A stretch of DNA of 22,372 bases from a virus: the IMG/VR virus record IMGVR_UViG_3300007346_000279, positions 1-22,372 of that record. The stretch is one strand, 5' to 3'. Made by a program: the position numbers and the translations under genes. The notes below the pieces were generated by a model. That model was not told the origin of the DNA, did not search any database, and worked only from the letters and a program-made list of their open reading frames with translations. Positions within the stretch are counted from its first letter, which is position 1; each line of letters begins with the position of its first letter. Positions 5,211-10,139 of this stretch are shown in pieces.

Positions 5211-5713
5211 ACCACCACGAACTGACCGAATACCTGGCCGATCGCGAGGTCAAGTACCCCGAAGTGGCCGCTCGTATGATCGCGAATTGGATGCAGGGCG
5301 AATCACTAAAGGTGATCGCGGAACGGCAGAACATCGACCCCGGCGCCGCAGAGCGCAGGTTGAACCTTGCGGCGGTGGCGCTCGGATGCGCGGACCGGCA
5401 CAGGCTGCGCAGACTGTACGAGTTCACCGACGACGACACGGACGATCCGCGGGACGAGGTGCACGTGATGCGCGACCCGATCACGGATTATCCAGCGGCG
5501 CGCGACATGGCGCGCGCGGTCACGGCGCTGACGCTGCGGACGAATCGCAGTGTGTGGGGGTCGCCTGCCTCGGTGCGCGACGCGTTGCTATTCTCGTCAA
5601 TCCAGCACGCACAGCAGCGTCTCGACGAAATGCACCGCGCGGGGATCGTGAGGTTCGGTCGTCCGCTGGACAGCAAGGGACGCGTCCGATGGGGGGTCAC
5701 GCTGTGCGTGTAG
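5207..5713 (+). CDS. Putative HTH / winged-helix regulator, 168 aa
   Basis: ATG at 5207 overlaps the upstream stop (ATGA), with no clear ribosome site, so translation is probably coupled. Residues about 30-60 (SLKVIAERQNIDPGAAERRL) look like a sigma-region-4-like helix-turn-helix; an acidic linker with DDDTDD follows; the C-terminal third (about 115-168) has a helix, then AQQRLDEMHRAGIVRFGRP and a strand pair, as in winged-helix wings. This suggests two DNA-binding regions. A plausible target is the palindrome or iterons upstream of the operon, but nothing in the sequence proves it. No named family recognised. Confidence 0.6.
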   Translation: MNHHELTEYLADREVKYPEVAARMIANWMQGESLKVIAERQNIDPGAAERRLNLAAVALGCADRHRLRRLYEFTDDDTDDPRDEVHVMRDPITDYPAARDMARAVTALTLRTNRSVWGSPASVRDALLFSSIQHAQQRLDEMHRAGIVRFGRPLDSKGRVRWGVTLCV

Positions 5714-6591
5714 GATCATTGTTTAGCGGGATCGGCGGATTCGATCTCGGACTTGAGCGCGCGGGAATGTCGGTTGCGTGGCAATGCGAGATCGACCCCG
5801 ACGCCCGCGCCATCCTCGCGAAACACTGGCCTGAGGTGCCCTGTTATGGAGACATCCGATCGATCGACTGGTCGACCGTCGAACCCGTTGACATCGTGTG
5901 CGGCGGCTACCCGTGCCAGCCCTTCAGTCACGCGGGATCGCGTGCGGGCGAGTCTGACCCGCGCCATCTTTGGCCAGAGGTTGCCCGATGCGTGCGCCAT
6001 CTACGACCCCGATGGGTGCTACTGGAAAACGTCGCAGGGCACCTTTCATTGGGCTTCGGGGCCGTTCTCGGAGACCTGGCCGCGCTCGGGTACGATGCGT
6101 GGTGGGACTGCATACCCGCTGCGGCCCTCGGCGCCCCGCACCTACGCGACCGAGTGTTCGTCGTGGCGTGGCGAGCTACTGCCGACGCCAACGACGGTGG
6201 ACACGCGCACGAGTCCGCGGACAGGTCCGATCGAACGCACGAGCTCGGGCACGCTTCGCACGCGCACGAGCGACGGTCGCACGGCGATGTTATCGCTGGC
6301 GGATCTGGCGATGTTGGGCTGTCTGATTCCGACCCCGACCGCGTCAATGCACAAGTGCGCGACGATCTGCCCGTCAAATATTCAGCGATTCCACCAGAAA
6401 AGGATGCACACCGAGGGGGCGATCGGTGCGCTTGGATACCGCGGCAGGCTCCATCCCCAGTTCGTAGAATGGATGATGGGGTTCCCGTTGCACTGGACGT
6501 GCCTCGACTCCGAGGACTAGGCAACGCGATCGTCCCGCAGATCCCCGAACTACTCGGGCGGATCATCATGGAGGTTGAGCAATGCAGATAA
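5704..6591 (+). CDS. C5-cytosine DNA methyltransferase
   Basis: GTG at 5704 follows a GGGGGG ribosome site and overlaps the previous gene by 10 bases; 295 aa. Motifs are complete and in order: I, FSGIGGFDLGLERAG (7-21); IV, GGYPCQPFS with catalytic Cys71; VI, ENVAG (108-112); VIII, HLRDRVFVV (146-154); X, RGLGNAIVPQ near the end. It transfers a methyl group from S-adenosylmethionine to C5 of cytosine. No partner endonuclease is visible, so it is probably an orphan enzyme protecting phage DNA from host restriction. The target-recognition region (about 160-255) is low in complexity, rich in His, Asp, Ser and Arg, and poorly conserved-looking. Exactly there another frame looks protein-like (see the overlapping entry). 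Target site cannot be read from sequence. Confidence 0.9.
   Translation: MRVGSLFSGIGGFDLGLERAGMSVAWQCEIDPDARAILAKHWPEVPCYGDIRSIDWSTVEPVDIVCGGYPCQPFSHAGSRAGESDPRHLWPEVARCVRHLRPRWVLLENVAGHLSLGFGAVLGDLAALGYDAWWDCIPAAALGAPHLRDRVFVVAWRATADANDGGHAHESADRSDRTHELGHASHAHERRSHGDVIAGGSGDVGLSDSDPDRVNAQVRDDLPVKYSAIPPEKDAHRGGDRCAWIPRQAPSPVRRMDDGVPVALDVPRLRGLGNAIVPQIPELLGRIIMEVEQCR
5753..6520 (+). CDS. Possible overlapping gene in the +1 frame of the C5 methyltransferase
   Basis: An uninterrupted 255-codon frame lies wholly inside the methyltransferase gene. From about 5970 its product stops looking like a random shadow: CYWKTSQGTFHWASG, then FSETWPRSGTMRGGTAYPLRP, then two LPTPT/IPTPTAS repeats, then FVEWMMGFPLHWT at the C-terminus. 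As I recall, this arrangement (W-x-T-S-Q, F-S-E-T-W-P-R-S-G, PTPTA repeats, W-V-E-W-L-M-G-F-P-x-G-W-T) is common in phage proteins annotated separately or as methylase parts. The first ~75 codons look unconstrained. Such similarity can also arise passively, because conserved methyltransferase motifs dictate the other frame. The start is undecided (ATG 5753 or an internal start). Confidence that it is translated is low to moderate. Confidence 0.3.
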   Translation: MSARECRLRGNARSTPTPAPSSRNTGLRCPVMETSDRSTGRPSNPLTSCAAATRASPSVTRDRVRASLTRAIFGQRLPDACAIYDPDGCYWKTSQGTFHWASGPFSETWPRSGTMRGGTAYPLRPSAPRTYATECSSWRGELLPTPTTVDTRTSPRTGPIERTSSGTLRTRTSDGRTAMLSLADLAMLGCLIPTPTASMHKCATICPSNIQRFHQKRMHTEGAIGALGYRGRLHPQFVEWMMGFPLHWTCLDSED

Positions 6592-6860: not shown

Positions 6861-7171
6861 AATGGACACGTAAGCGAATCCGAATCAATCAACGGCACCG
6901 CGAGCCGATCGAGGTCGACGGGTGGTTGTCACCGTCCGGTCGCTGGCACGTTCGACGCGCTCGTCGCGACTCGGATATGTGGATCGTGTCGCACGTGCCC
7001 ACGGGGCGCGCGGGGATGCGCCCGGTGGGACTGCTGCGAGATATCAAGCAGGCACTCGACGACGCGGACGCATCGATCGGAATTGTGACCAGTTACGAAA
7101 ACAACCGCGACTCTGCGCGAGACCTGCTCGCGCCGTATTGCGAGGACATCACTCGGAGGTTTGCACCGTGA
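6857..7171 (+). CDS. Unknown basic protein, 104 aa
   Basis: ATG at 6857 overlaps the previous TGA (ATGA) with GGGAGGG upstream. The N-terminal half is very basic (KWTRKRIRINQRHRE) with a beta-rich stretch including GWLSPSGRWHVRRARRDSDM; the C-terminal half is helical and mixed-charge. Basic charge suggests nucleic acid contact. No family recognised. Its end overlaps the GTG of the next methyltransferase. Confidence 0.7.
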   Translation: MKWTRKRIRINQRHREPIEVDGWLSPSGRWHVRRARRDSDMWIVSHVPTGRAGMRPVGLLRDIKQALDDADASIGIVTSYENNRDSARDLLAPYCEDITRRFAP

Positions 7172-8544
7172 CGGATACACTGATCACAGTCGGGGACTGT
7201 CTCGACACGTTGCGCGCGATGCCCGACGCGAGCGTCGACGCGGTCGTGACCGATCCGCCGTATGGACTCGGGCGCGAGCCCGACCCGCGCGAAGTGCTCG
7301 CGGCGTGGCTTGACGGCGCCGAGTATCAGCCGGGCGGGCGCGGATTCATGGGTAAGGCCTGGGACGCCTTCGTCCCGTCGCCGGTCGTCTGGTCGGAGTG
7401 CCTTCGCGTGCTCAAACCGGGCGGCCACCTGCTCGCGTTCGCGGGGTCTCGCACGTACGACTGGATCGTCATGGGCGTGCGGCTCGCTGGCTTTGAAGTG
7501 CGGGATCAATTGCTTTGGCTTTACGGGTCCGGGTTCCCGAAAAGTCTGAACGTCAGCAAGGCGATTGACCGCGCGGCCGGGGCGGAACGGGAGGTGGTGG
7601 GGAAAGCACAATCTTGGAACCGTCCCGAATCAACGGACGGGCACACCGCGCGAATGAACACAAGCCCAGGAATTTACGACATAACCGCACCCGCCACCGA
7701 AGCCGCTCGCCAGTGGAACGGATGGGGCACCGCGCTCAAACCCGCGCACGAACCGATCGTGCTCGCTCGCAAGCCGCTATCCGGCACCGTCGCGCACAAC
7801 GTGACGACGCACGGGACCGGGGCGATCAATGTGGATGGGTGTCGGGTGGGGAGTGAGGGCGGAGTCGGGCACGTAGTCGCACAAGGCGATCCACAGGCCG
7901 AAGGATGGGGAACCAGAAAGCCTGTATTTGACAACACAGTGCGCGGGAGATTCCCCGCCAACGTCCTACACGACGGATCGCCCGAAGTGCTCGCGGGGTT
8001 TCCGGTGACGTCGAGCGGCGTCTTTGCGTCTCGGAAGACGCGCGGGATCTGGTCGAGCGAGGCGGCAGAGCAGAGCGTTCGGGTAACGGGCGACACCGGA
8101 TCCGCCGCCCGATTCTTCTACCACGCCAAAGCGAGCCGCGCCGAACGCGAGCGCGGGTTGACGCACCGCGAGCCCGAGACGGTGGGCGACGGTCGCGCGG
8201 TCGCAGCTGACAACGCCTACCAGCGCGGCAAAACCGAGCGCCGCAACGTGCACCCCACGGTCAAGCCGGTCGCCGTTATGCGGTGGCTCGTGCGACTCGT
8301 CACGCCACCGGGCGGAGTCGTGCTCGACCCGTTCACCGGCAGCGGCACGACCGGGATCGCGGCGACGCTCGAGGGGTTCCGGTTTATCGGTTGCGAGCTC
8401 TCGCACGAATACGCCGACCTCGCACGCGGGCGAATTGCGCACGCGGTCGCGCACCCGCACGAATGGGACCCCGAGATCGATCCGCCCGCCGCTGACGAGC
8501 CCGACGCGGTGCCCGGTCAAACCTCACTTTTGGATCTGGTATGA
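7168..8544 (+). CDS. Beta-class amino DNA methyltransferase (N6-adenine or N4-cytosine)
   Basis: GTG at 7168 overlaps the upstream stop (GTGA) and follows CGGAGG; 458 aa. Catalytic motif TDPPYGLG (28-35, DPPY at 29-32) precedes the AdoMet-binding motif DPFTGSGTTG (387-396), the order of the beta class. Between them lie the LKPGGHLLAF motif (about 86-95), ALKPAHEPIVLARKP and NVHPTVKPVAVMRWL, standard in phage DNA methylases of the DNA_methylase_N4/N6 family. DPPY favours adenine N6. A Gly- and Thr-rich central insertion probably holds target recognition. It works with the C5 enzyme upstream as a second orphan modification enzyme. Site specificity is not readable. Confidence 0.9.
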   Translation: MTDTLITVGDCLDTLRAMPDASVDAVVTDPPYGLGREPDPREVLAAWLDGAEYQPGGRGFMGKAWDAFVPSPVVWSECLRVLKPGGHLLAFAGSRTYDWIVMGVRLAGFEVRDQLLWLYGSGFPKSLNVSKAIDRAAGAEREVVGKAQSWNRPESTDGHTARMNTSPGIYDITAPATEAARQWNGWGTALKPAHEPIVLARKPLSGTVAHNVTTHGTGAINVDGCRVGSEGGVGHVVAQGDPQAEGWGTRKPVFDNTVRGRFPANVLHDGSPEVLAGFPVTSSGVFASRKTRGIWSSEAAEQSVRVTGDTGSAARFFYHAKASRAERERGLTHREPETVGDGRAVAADNAYQRGKTERRNVHPTVKPVAVMRWLVRLVTPPGGVVLDPFTGSGTTGIAATLEGFRFIGCELSHEYADLARGRIAHAVAHPHEWDPEIDPPAADEPDAVPGQTSLLDLV

Positions 8545-10139
8545 TGTGGGGCGGACTAACCCCGCGAAAGTGGCAGGCGGCAGCGTTCGACGAGGTGTTG
8601 AGGCGATGGGACGCGGGCGACGACAGAGGACTGATCGTCGCGACGATGGGCGCGGGCAAGTCGGTTGCACTGGCGGAAGTCATCGCGCACACCGAGGGAC
8701 GCGTTGCGGTGACTGCCCCCACGCTGCGACTGGTCCACCAGTTAGCGGGCACGCTTGAGCGCCGCGGACTGGATGTCGGGCGAGTCTGCACCGGGCACCG
8801 AGACACCTCGCGACGTGTGACTGTCACGAGCTACGATCCGCGCAGCCTGTCGCACGTCACGGACTGCGACGTGTGGATCGCGGACGAGGCGCACCGAACG
8901 AACACGTGGGCGATCAGTGAGTGGCGCAAGTCGGTCGCCCCGTCGCGCTCGCTCGGATTCACTGCGACCCCGTACCTCGCTGACGAGGGCGACGCGCTGC
9001 AACTGTGGGCGGGCGTGTGGTATCACTACGACCTGACGCAAGCTGTGCGCGACGGTGTCGTGATGCTGCCGACCTTTGCGGGCGTGCGATGCACCGAGGA
9101 CGATCTTGTCGAGGGCGCCCGCGCTTGGCTTGAGCAGGTGGACGGATCGGGCGTGTTCTCGGCATCGACGCGGAGCAGCGCGGACGCGCTCGCGAGCGCG
9201 CTTGACGGTGTCGAGTCGTACCACAGCGGGCAGTCGCAGGCCGAGCGATCGGACCGACTGGCACGACTTGAGCGCGGAGAGATTCGCGCGATCGTGCATG
9301 TCGCGTGTCTCGTCGAGGGTGTCGATCTTCCGTGGCTGCGATGGATCGGCCTGACTCATCCGCGCGGGTCTCGGGTGGCGTATGCACAGGAGATCGGGCG
9401 AGTGCTGCGGACGTATCCGAGCAAGGATCAAGTCCTCGTGTGGGACCCGTTCGGGGTGGCGGACATCCACTCGTTGCACGATCCCGCGGCACTGTCTGCG
9501 GCATTAGAGGACATCGCGCCGGACATGGGACCGCCCGCGCAAGCGACCATGCAGATCAGGGACGGAATGATCACCGAGGTATACCGGCACATCGCAGACC
9601 GGATCGCACCGGATGATCTGCCGCTGCCGTGCACGCTGACCCCCGAGGGCGTGACGTTTGATCTCGACGGTGAGACGATCGAACTACCGTCCACGCAATA
9701 CGCGCCCCGACCACAAGATCCGCCTGACGTGGTATGGTTGCGGCACGTGCTAGACATCGGACTCGATCTCGACATCGCAGCGGGCACGCGATCGATCCCT
9801 GCTGTTATGTCGGACGACGAGGTTGCGATCAGAAACGCGGTTCTGCGACTACATGCCGCGGGACTGTGTCGCACCCTGCCCGAGCTAGTGCGCGAGAACG
9901 CACGCAAGATCAAAGCACAGCGGATTGACACCTATTTGCAGAGCGCCGCAAGCTGGCGGCAACTCGGGTGGCTGCGGCAGAAAGTGCGCGGTCGCGGGTT
10001 GCCGCTGCTGACCCGCCTCGCGTATGCTGCTGACCCGCCTCGCGTGTCCACGGTGTACGCGTGCGGACTCGTGCTCGGTTCGATGGAACGTGACAGTGAG
10101 ACAACGACGAAGATCGTGGAGGGGATAGGCAATGACTGA
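8541..10139 (+). CDS. SF2 DEAD/DEAH-box helicase
   Basis: ATG at 8541 (a second ATG follows at once) overlaps the methyltransferase stop; 532 aa. Q-like motif L-T-P-R-K-W-Q (6-11), Walker A ATMGAGKS (34-41), motif II DEAH (115-118), motif III TATP (141-144), motif V LVEGVDLP (257-264) and motif VI QEIGRVLR (283-290) are all present, as in the UvrB/RAD3/Res-type ATP-dependent helicases of phage replication modules. Residues 330-532 form an extra C-terminal region of unknown fold. Placed before the primase-helicase, it probably unwinds or remodels DNA at forks or at the origin. A near-perfect 20-base tandem duplication with period 22 lies near the 3' end (10004-10045). Confidence 0.9.
   Translation: MMWGGLTPRKWQAAAFDEVLRRWDAGDDRGLIVATMGAGKSVALAEVIAHTEGRVAVTAPTLRLVHQLAGTLERRGLDVGRVCTGHRDTSRRVTVTSYDPRSLSHVTDCDVWIADEAHRTNTWAISEWRKSVAPSRSLGFTATPYLADEGDALQLWAGVWYHYDLTQAVRDGVVMLPTFAGVRCTEDDLVEGARAWLEQVDGSGVFSASTRSSADALASALDGVESYHSGQSQAERSDRLARLERGEIRAIVHVACLVEGVDLPWLRWIGLTHPRGSRVAYAQEIGRVLRTYPSKDQVLVWDPFGVADIHSLHDPAALSAALEDIAPDMGPPAQATMQIRDGMITEVYRHIADRIAPDDLPLPCTLTPEGVTFDLDGETIELPSTQYAPRPQDPPDVVWLRHVLDIGLDLDIAAGTRSIPAVMSDDEVAIRNAVLRLHAAGLCRTLPELVRENARKIKAQRIDTYLQSAASWRQLGWLRQKVRGRGLPLLTRLAYAADPPRVSTVYACGLVLGSMERDSETTTKIVEGIGND
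10004..10045 (+). repeat. 20-bp direct repeat with 22-bp period inside the helicase gene
   Basis: The 20-mer beginning GCTGCTGACCC at 10004-10023 recurs exactly at 10026-10045. A period of 22 is not a multiple of three, so the two copies are read in different frames (LLTRLA, then AADPPR). Confidence 0.8.

Follow-up and report, generated by a model that had tools for sequence, protein, structure and literature searches.

The analyses presented here make it probable that a viral C5-cytosine methyltransferase locus encodes one enzyme as two chains, which are read from overlapping frames and assemble into an active whole. The locus lies in a 22,372-nucleotide stretch of DNA (“the window”; positions 1 to 22,372 of IMG/VR virus record IMGVR_UViG_3300007346_000279), and the parts of the locus described below are on its plus strand. 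Both frames are under selection, the methyltransferase motifs are divided between them and, computationally, the linker of frame 0 is predicted to be disordered. Frame 0 would provide the large domain—motifs I–VIII, with the AdoMet site and the catalytic Cys, and motif X, joined by that disordered linker—and we infer that the +1 frame is translated, probably from its own ATG at 5846, into the small domain (an N-terminal part lying over motifs IV–VIII, LPTP repeats and motif IX). The variable LPTP repeats of the +1 chain would stand in the place of the target recognition region, the two chains would assemble into an active, sequence-specific enzyme, and this two-chain enzyme presumably protects phage DNA from restriction.

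The frame 0 chain (5704–6591; start candidates, by eye, GTG 5704 or ATG 5689) matches the C5-cytosine methyltransferase family PF00145 (E 6.5e-42, residues 2–168) and phrog_363 (E 1.9e-80, residues 1–293), and carries motifs I–VIII, with PCQ and ENV, and motif X (LGNAIVPQ, about 6517–6540), where G272 and N273 are invariant, mean pLDDT is 84 for residues 271–280 and frame 0 is constrained in relatives. Its motif IV (GYPCQPF) contains Cys residue 70 (codon 5914–5916), an invariant column (C70) in the A4 alignment, which by family knowledge we take to be the catalytic residue. What the chain lacks is a recognised motif IX, which is present in the +1 frame instead. That frame is open for 255 codons (5753–6520), as a first-pass annotation of the sequence had stated, the first of them being TTG, and for 268 codons from stop to stop (5714–6520), ending with TAG at 6518–6520; every +1 string quoted in that annotation is present (WKTSQG, FSETWPRSGTMRGGTAY, LLPTPTT and LIPTPTA, WMMGFPLHWT). 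The same annotation had correctly read frame 0 as a C5 methyltransferase, but had placed motif X inside the overlap, when in fact this motif begins where the +1 frame stops and hardly overlaps it.

If ATG 5846 is its start, the +1 chain (5846–6520), our putative small domain, has 224 aa, and it matches phrog_1008 (“DNA methyltransferase”; E about 2e-26) over most of its length (E 1.9e-26, residues 11–218 of 224 on profile positions 34–279 of 329); no Pfam or NCBIfam match was found for it at E <= 1. All 86 members of A3, a profile set of +1 proteins, match phrog_1008, and none of the 86 has a Pfam match. The earlier suggestion that the +1 frame belongs to a family usually annotated separately fits the phrog_1008 match and the record of Paenibacillus phage Tadhana, where both frames are deposited as nested CDS (TADHANA_54 and 55). 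Just downstream in the window lie a second DNA methyltransferase-like ORF (6922–8544; by eye of amino or N4 type, with a TDPPYG motif) and, after it, a helicase-like ORF (8541–10139).

We compared independent pairs in ungapped in-frame blocks and tallied their substitutions by frame 0 codon position across four regions whose borders are approximate, being taken from profile positions: region A, before the overlap; region B (5846–6186), with frame 0 motifs IV–VIII and, in +1, WKTSQ..FSETWPRSGTMRGG; region C (6187–6510), from behind motif VIII roughly as far as motif IX extends, with the LPTP repeats and then motif IX in +1 and an open linker in frame 0; and region D, motif X. For 76 pairs with the window's layout (type 1, below), rates at positions 1/2/3 were.155/.105/.375 in region A,.163/.092/.281 in region B,.36/.239/.233 in region C and.183/.137/.40 in region D. 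Position 3 exceeded position 1 in 74 of the 76 pairs in region A (2 ties), in 72 in region B (4 opposite) and in 63 in region D (9 opposite, 4 ties), while in region C it was position 1 that exceeded position 3, in 69 pairs (6 opposite, 1 tie); because frame 0 position 1 corresponds to +1 position 3, the frame constrained in region C is +1, and frame 0 there is under little amino acid constraint. In region B both frames are constrained. Along the gene, selection acts first on frame 0 (motifs I–VIII), then on +1 across the variable region and motif IX, and for motif X on frame 0 again. The +1 ORF is conserved and itself selected, rather than being a shadow of the methyltransferase.

The 27 pairs that are <25% diverged in region C have rates there of.203/.06/.05, and type 2 loci show the same pattern in this region more weakly (.358/.262/.270 in 20 pairs, 14 of the 20 by sign). 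Pairs of loci fetched with the frame 0 protein alone, which are free of a motif IX fetch bias described below (6 of the 76 type 1 and 17 of the 20 type 2 pairs), gave.397/.288/.27 for type 1 and.337/.231/.231 for type 2 in region C. Motif IX itself (LHPQFVEWMMGFPLHWT, 6449–6499) was called from codon-position conservation, which the search pattern partly biases, and from the match of a +1 profile to complete enzymes. The pair formed by the window and its relative L012 has no codon-position signal in region C (32, 33 and 28 changes); before motif IX their +1 proteins align at z 6.8 and their frame 0 proteins at z 1.4, and identity is 78/113 for +1 in region B and 141/159 for frame 0 in motifs I–VIII.

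The related loci number 327, many of them near-duplicates (L009–L011, L090 and L091 are the window's own phage), and the shuffle, start and pair tests were run on reduced locus sets. The +1 protein has a tblastn match in 173 phage records (E <= 0.001), and a motif-pattern scan of bacterial and archaeal genomes gave 118 confirmed loci; a gammaproteobacterial sample had the locus in 13 of 274 genomes, the chosen centre genome included, and a search for an M.EcoHK31I-like gene gave four E. coli chromosomes with a prophage-like methyltransferase, together with 7 and 5 plasmid records of other hosts. In 319 of the 327 loci the +1 N-terminal part is in frame +1 relative to a C5-methyltransferase ORF; the remaining eight are truncated or odd (L134, L151, L163, L164, L194, L227), frameshifted (L003) or, by eye, also +1 (L195). 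All 327 also match the methyltransferase profile, and no standalone copy of the +1 family was seen among them.

Three layouts occur. Type 1, that of the window (253/327), has motifs I–VIII and X in frame 0 and motif IX in +1; type 2 (57/327) has motif IX in frame 0, with +1 retaining the N-terminal part and LPTP repeats; and in type 3 (9/327) frame 0 ends early and +1 extends past it to motif IX. Eight of the 327 loci were left unassigned. In four type 3 loci (L002, L006, L041 and L045) the +1 chain carries both motifs IX and X, and frame 0 stops after motif VIII. A pattern search, in which +1 was represented by its best ORF, placed motif IX in +1 in 191 of 250 non-redundant loci and in frame 0 in 38; 21 had it in neither frame and none in both, counts that are inflated where loci had been fetched by the motif IX pattern. 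The shuffle-test set of 66 loci is free of this bias, having been obtained through the frame 0 protein alone, and gave 22, 31, 13 and 0, respectively. The A3 profile was built exclusively from +1 proteins of type 1 loci; of the 57 type 2 loci, 56 have a frame 0 chain that it recognises, with its best matches on motif IX, as against none of 252 type 1 loci. This contrast holds partly by definition, as the sorting into types had relied on a broader profile for whose training frame 0 motif IX was used in part. What this result adds is that +1 sequences alone recognise the motif IX of complete enzymes. In L042, L053 and L054 the LPTP repeats are in frame 0 between motifs VIII and IX, a stretch described as the place of the variable, target-recognising region (PMC3404938).

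Several single loci are of separate interest. In Mycobacterium phage Llama (L003, 1419–2178), genes 74 and 75 are two methyltransferase halves in different frames, and the +1 family switches frame at nearly that point, as though a single indel had shifted both readings. The prophage of E. coli PCP07014 (L327, 3489–4250) has a RefSeq methyltransferase pseudogene with an internal stop, where the +1 frame is also stopped, so that the two chains are disrupted jointly; a different E. coli strain (L328) has the two frames open. A Bryobacterales MAG (L194, 1171–1908) has a single ORF running from methyltransferase motifs I–IV into +1 family sequence, through an indel, a sequencing error or a natural fusion, and L242 and L216 have motif IX in the ORF with motifs I–VIII and motif X in another overlapping ORF, a further exchange of motifs between frames.

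In the AF2 model of the frame 0 chain, most of residues 1–160 and 271–294 are above pLDDT 84 (one ten-residue block is at 74) and most of residues 164–256 are under 50, with M.HhaI as the best Foldseek match (rmsd 1.5 over 162 columns); the model is that of an M.HhaI-like large domain, with a disordered stretch at the place of the small domain. The +1 chain modelled alone reached a mean pLDDT of 61 and a pTM of 0.27, and a PDB sequence search with A3 returned just four apolipoprotein E chains (E 0.67–0.74). Because this single-chain model is poor and had no PDB match at E <= 0.001, the small-domain fold of +1 stays a prediction.

An isolated +1 model without a recognisable fold would also suit a genuine overprinted gene whose product is a separate accessory protein (a regulator, an anti-restriction protein or a DNA-binding partner) with an incidental likeness to motif IX, as would the conserved +1 N-terminal part retained in type 2 loci beside a complete frame 0. 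These type 2 loci count against the two-chain reading in their own way: motif IX is already present in their frame 0, but the +1 N-terminal part and LPTP repeats are retained, and +1 would therefore do more than supply motif IX. We nevertheless consider a separate accessory protein unlikely, given that the pattern search detects motif IX in either frame but in both in 0 of 250 loci, that a profile of +1 proteins recognises the motif IX of complete enzymes, and that in L002, L006, L041 and L045 it is +1 that carries motifs IX and X when frame 0 ends after motif VIII.

In the two-chain enzyme, the window's +1 chain would start, tentatively, at ATG 5846, which stands 7 nt after a Shine–Dalgarno-like GAGGTG (5833–5838) and seems a likelier start than TTG 5753; the openness of the 255-codon frame described in the first-pass annotation holds. 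A similar site precedes a start at a comparable place in L012 (AAGGTG) and in L015 and L019 (GAGGTG), and many type 2 loci have a common start further in. A start with a Shine–Dalgarno score >=5 was found in 79 of 181 non-redundant loci (44%) versus 24% in synonymous shuffles over equal stretches, and one with a score >=6 in 40 of 181 (22%) versus 7%; the window's own site was equalled in 25 of 100 codon shuffles and is not significant alone. This group-level signal favours separate initiation over programmed ribosomal frameshifting, by which frame 0 and +1 would be fused into one longer protein. A shift into +1 would restore the order motif VIII, variable region, motif IX, but a single shift loses motif X, which is kept in frame 0 under selection (region D), and the +1 frames as a group are richer than shuffles in starts with Shine–Dalgarno matches; we regard frameshifting as very improbable.

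The length of the +1 open run was compared with shuffles that kept the frame 0 protein and permuted its synonymous codons, with 1 of 107 non-redundant loci left out for a non-standard codon. For the window, a run as long as 268 codons arose in 2 of 1000 shuffles (p=0.002). The frame 0 protein alone had retrieved 66 non-redundant loci, one of them the window; among these, +1 was open beyond chance at p<0.05 in 51 and at p<=0.001 in 28, and the other four alternative frames reached p<0.05 in 3, 4, 4 and 0 loci and p<=0.001 in 0, 0, 0 and 0; the 15 of 66 that are individually non-significant include L012 (p=0.166). Loci fetched with the +1 protein reached p<0.05 for +1 in 31 of 34 cases, and loci from phage records in 3 of 6. 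As a control, 37 ordinary C5 methyltransferases (best matches from bacterial genomes; 500 shuffles) gave p<0.05 for +1 in one, L337, which has a partial +1 match, and for the other frames in 4, 3, 1 and 3. In the reciprocal test, with +1 codons shuffled over region C of 135 non-redundant type 1 loci, frame 0 was open in 131 versus 12.9 expected, and in 22 of 22 versus 0.9 expected under 50% GC; the third frame was open in 0, and frame 0 was not open in 4 of the 135. In our reading, frame 0 is kept open over this stretch, nearly free of amino acid constraint, in order to reach motif X.

Long open alternative frames do arise in GC-rich coding DNA, and several GC-rich loci are individually non-significant in the shuffle test, but the idea that +1 only shadows a methyltransferase frame that is conserved and GC-rich, with phrog_1008 as a spurious family, is hardly credible and was rejected on the shuffle test, the codon-position rates (in region C the constraint falls on +1 and not on frame 0) and the absence of the effect in all but one of the 37 ordinary methyltransferases, with both frames also open in low-GC relatives (KT997847, L008, 33% GC; Paenibacillus phage Tadhana, L004, 45% GC). 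The first-pass annotation had offered dual coding or, as the alternative, a family amounting to no more than methyltransferase DNA in an overprinted or frame-shifted reading; the former is supported by the shuffle test, the codon-position rates and the reciprocal test, and the latter finds no support, as past motif VIII the constraint sits in +1 and not in the methyltransferase frame. Among the findings that would refute two meaningful frames it had counted free +1 stop codons in homologues and a lack of reduced synonymous variation in the methyltransferase frame: +1 stops are rare in relatives, and third-position change in frame 0 drops from.375 to.281 to.233 in the overlap. It escaped that annotation that an unrelated protein is probably not what the second frame encodes: the frame ends in the methyltransferase motif IX that is missing from frame 0.

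We lean, if only slightly, towards a broader version of the two-chain model: in a large clade of C5 methyltransferases from phages and bacteria, the placing of catalytic and recognition domains in two overlapping frames would be old and stable. As a specificity subunit, the +1 chain would be able to vary its LPTP repeats while the catalytic chain stays as it is, the part of frame 0 beneath them being a free linker, and linker indels would move motif IX or X between frames to give types 1, 2 and 3. If the two-chain model is true, the locus is a same-strand overlap of about 670 bases with both frames under selection, in contrast with the annotation-error verdict of a survey that ascribes all 715 hand-checked co-directional overlaps >60 bp to such error (PMC2478687). 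A role would then be found for a phage protein family of unclear role, and keeping one frame in annotation could lose half of an enzyme. Such loci would also be a source of natural split methyltransferases, a class already applied to targeted methylation in a study on M.EcoHK31I (PMC3439449), and whether target specificity is set by the overlapping chain would become a directly testable question.

Among known systems, the two frames appear to divide the gene along the line between the large and small domains of M.HhaI and M.HaeIII, in which most motifs lie in the large domain, and motif IX lies with the variable region in the small one (PMC3404938). The frame 0 chain resembles these enzymes in its predicted fold, and their domain division matches the frame split, but they are made as one chain from one frame. 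M.AquI (CYCGRG) is described in the same source as a two-polypeptide C5 methyltransferase with motifs I–VIII in one chain and IX–X in the other (PMC3404938); motifs IX and X are not together in the small chain of the window, where motif X is in frame 0, whereas the type 3 loci L002, L006, L041 and L045 do have both in one chain. PHROGs lists phrog_1008, which the +1 product matches, as a family of its own.

By analogy, the nearest precedent of the two-frame locus seems to be M.EcoHK31I (YGGCCR), whose small chain, as Lee, Kam and Shaw reportedly found in 1995, is encoded in another frame within the gene of the large chain. This two-polypeptide C5 methyltransferase has motifs I–VIII and X in its large chain and motif IX in its small chain, with the predicted recognition domain assigned to the large chain (PMC3404938). 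The window has the same division of motifs at the sequence level, a likeness drawn from the published description, and differs in that its variable region is in +1, the matching stretch of frame 0 being predicted disordered and little constrained. No paper on the present overlap was found by title or abstract in the literature searched, which lacked most subscription papers; this is weak evidence of novelty. What is added over M.EcoHK31I is the breadth of the arrangement, the evidence for selection, the three layouts and the variable region in +1.
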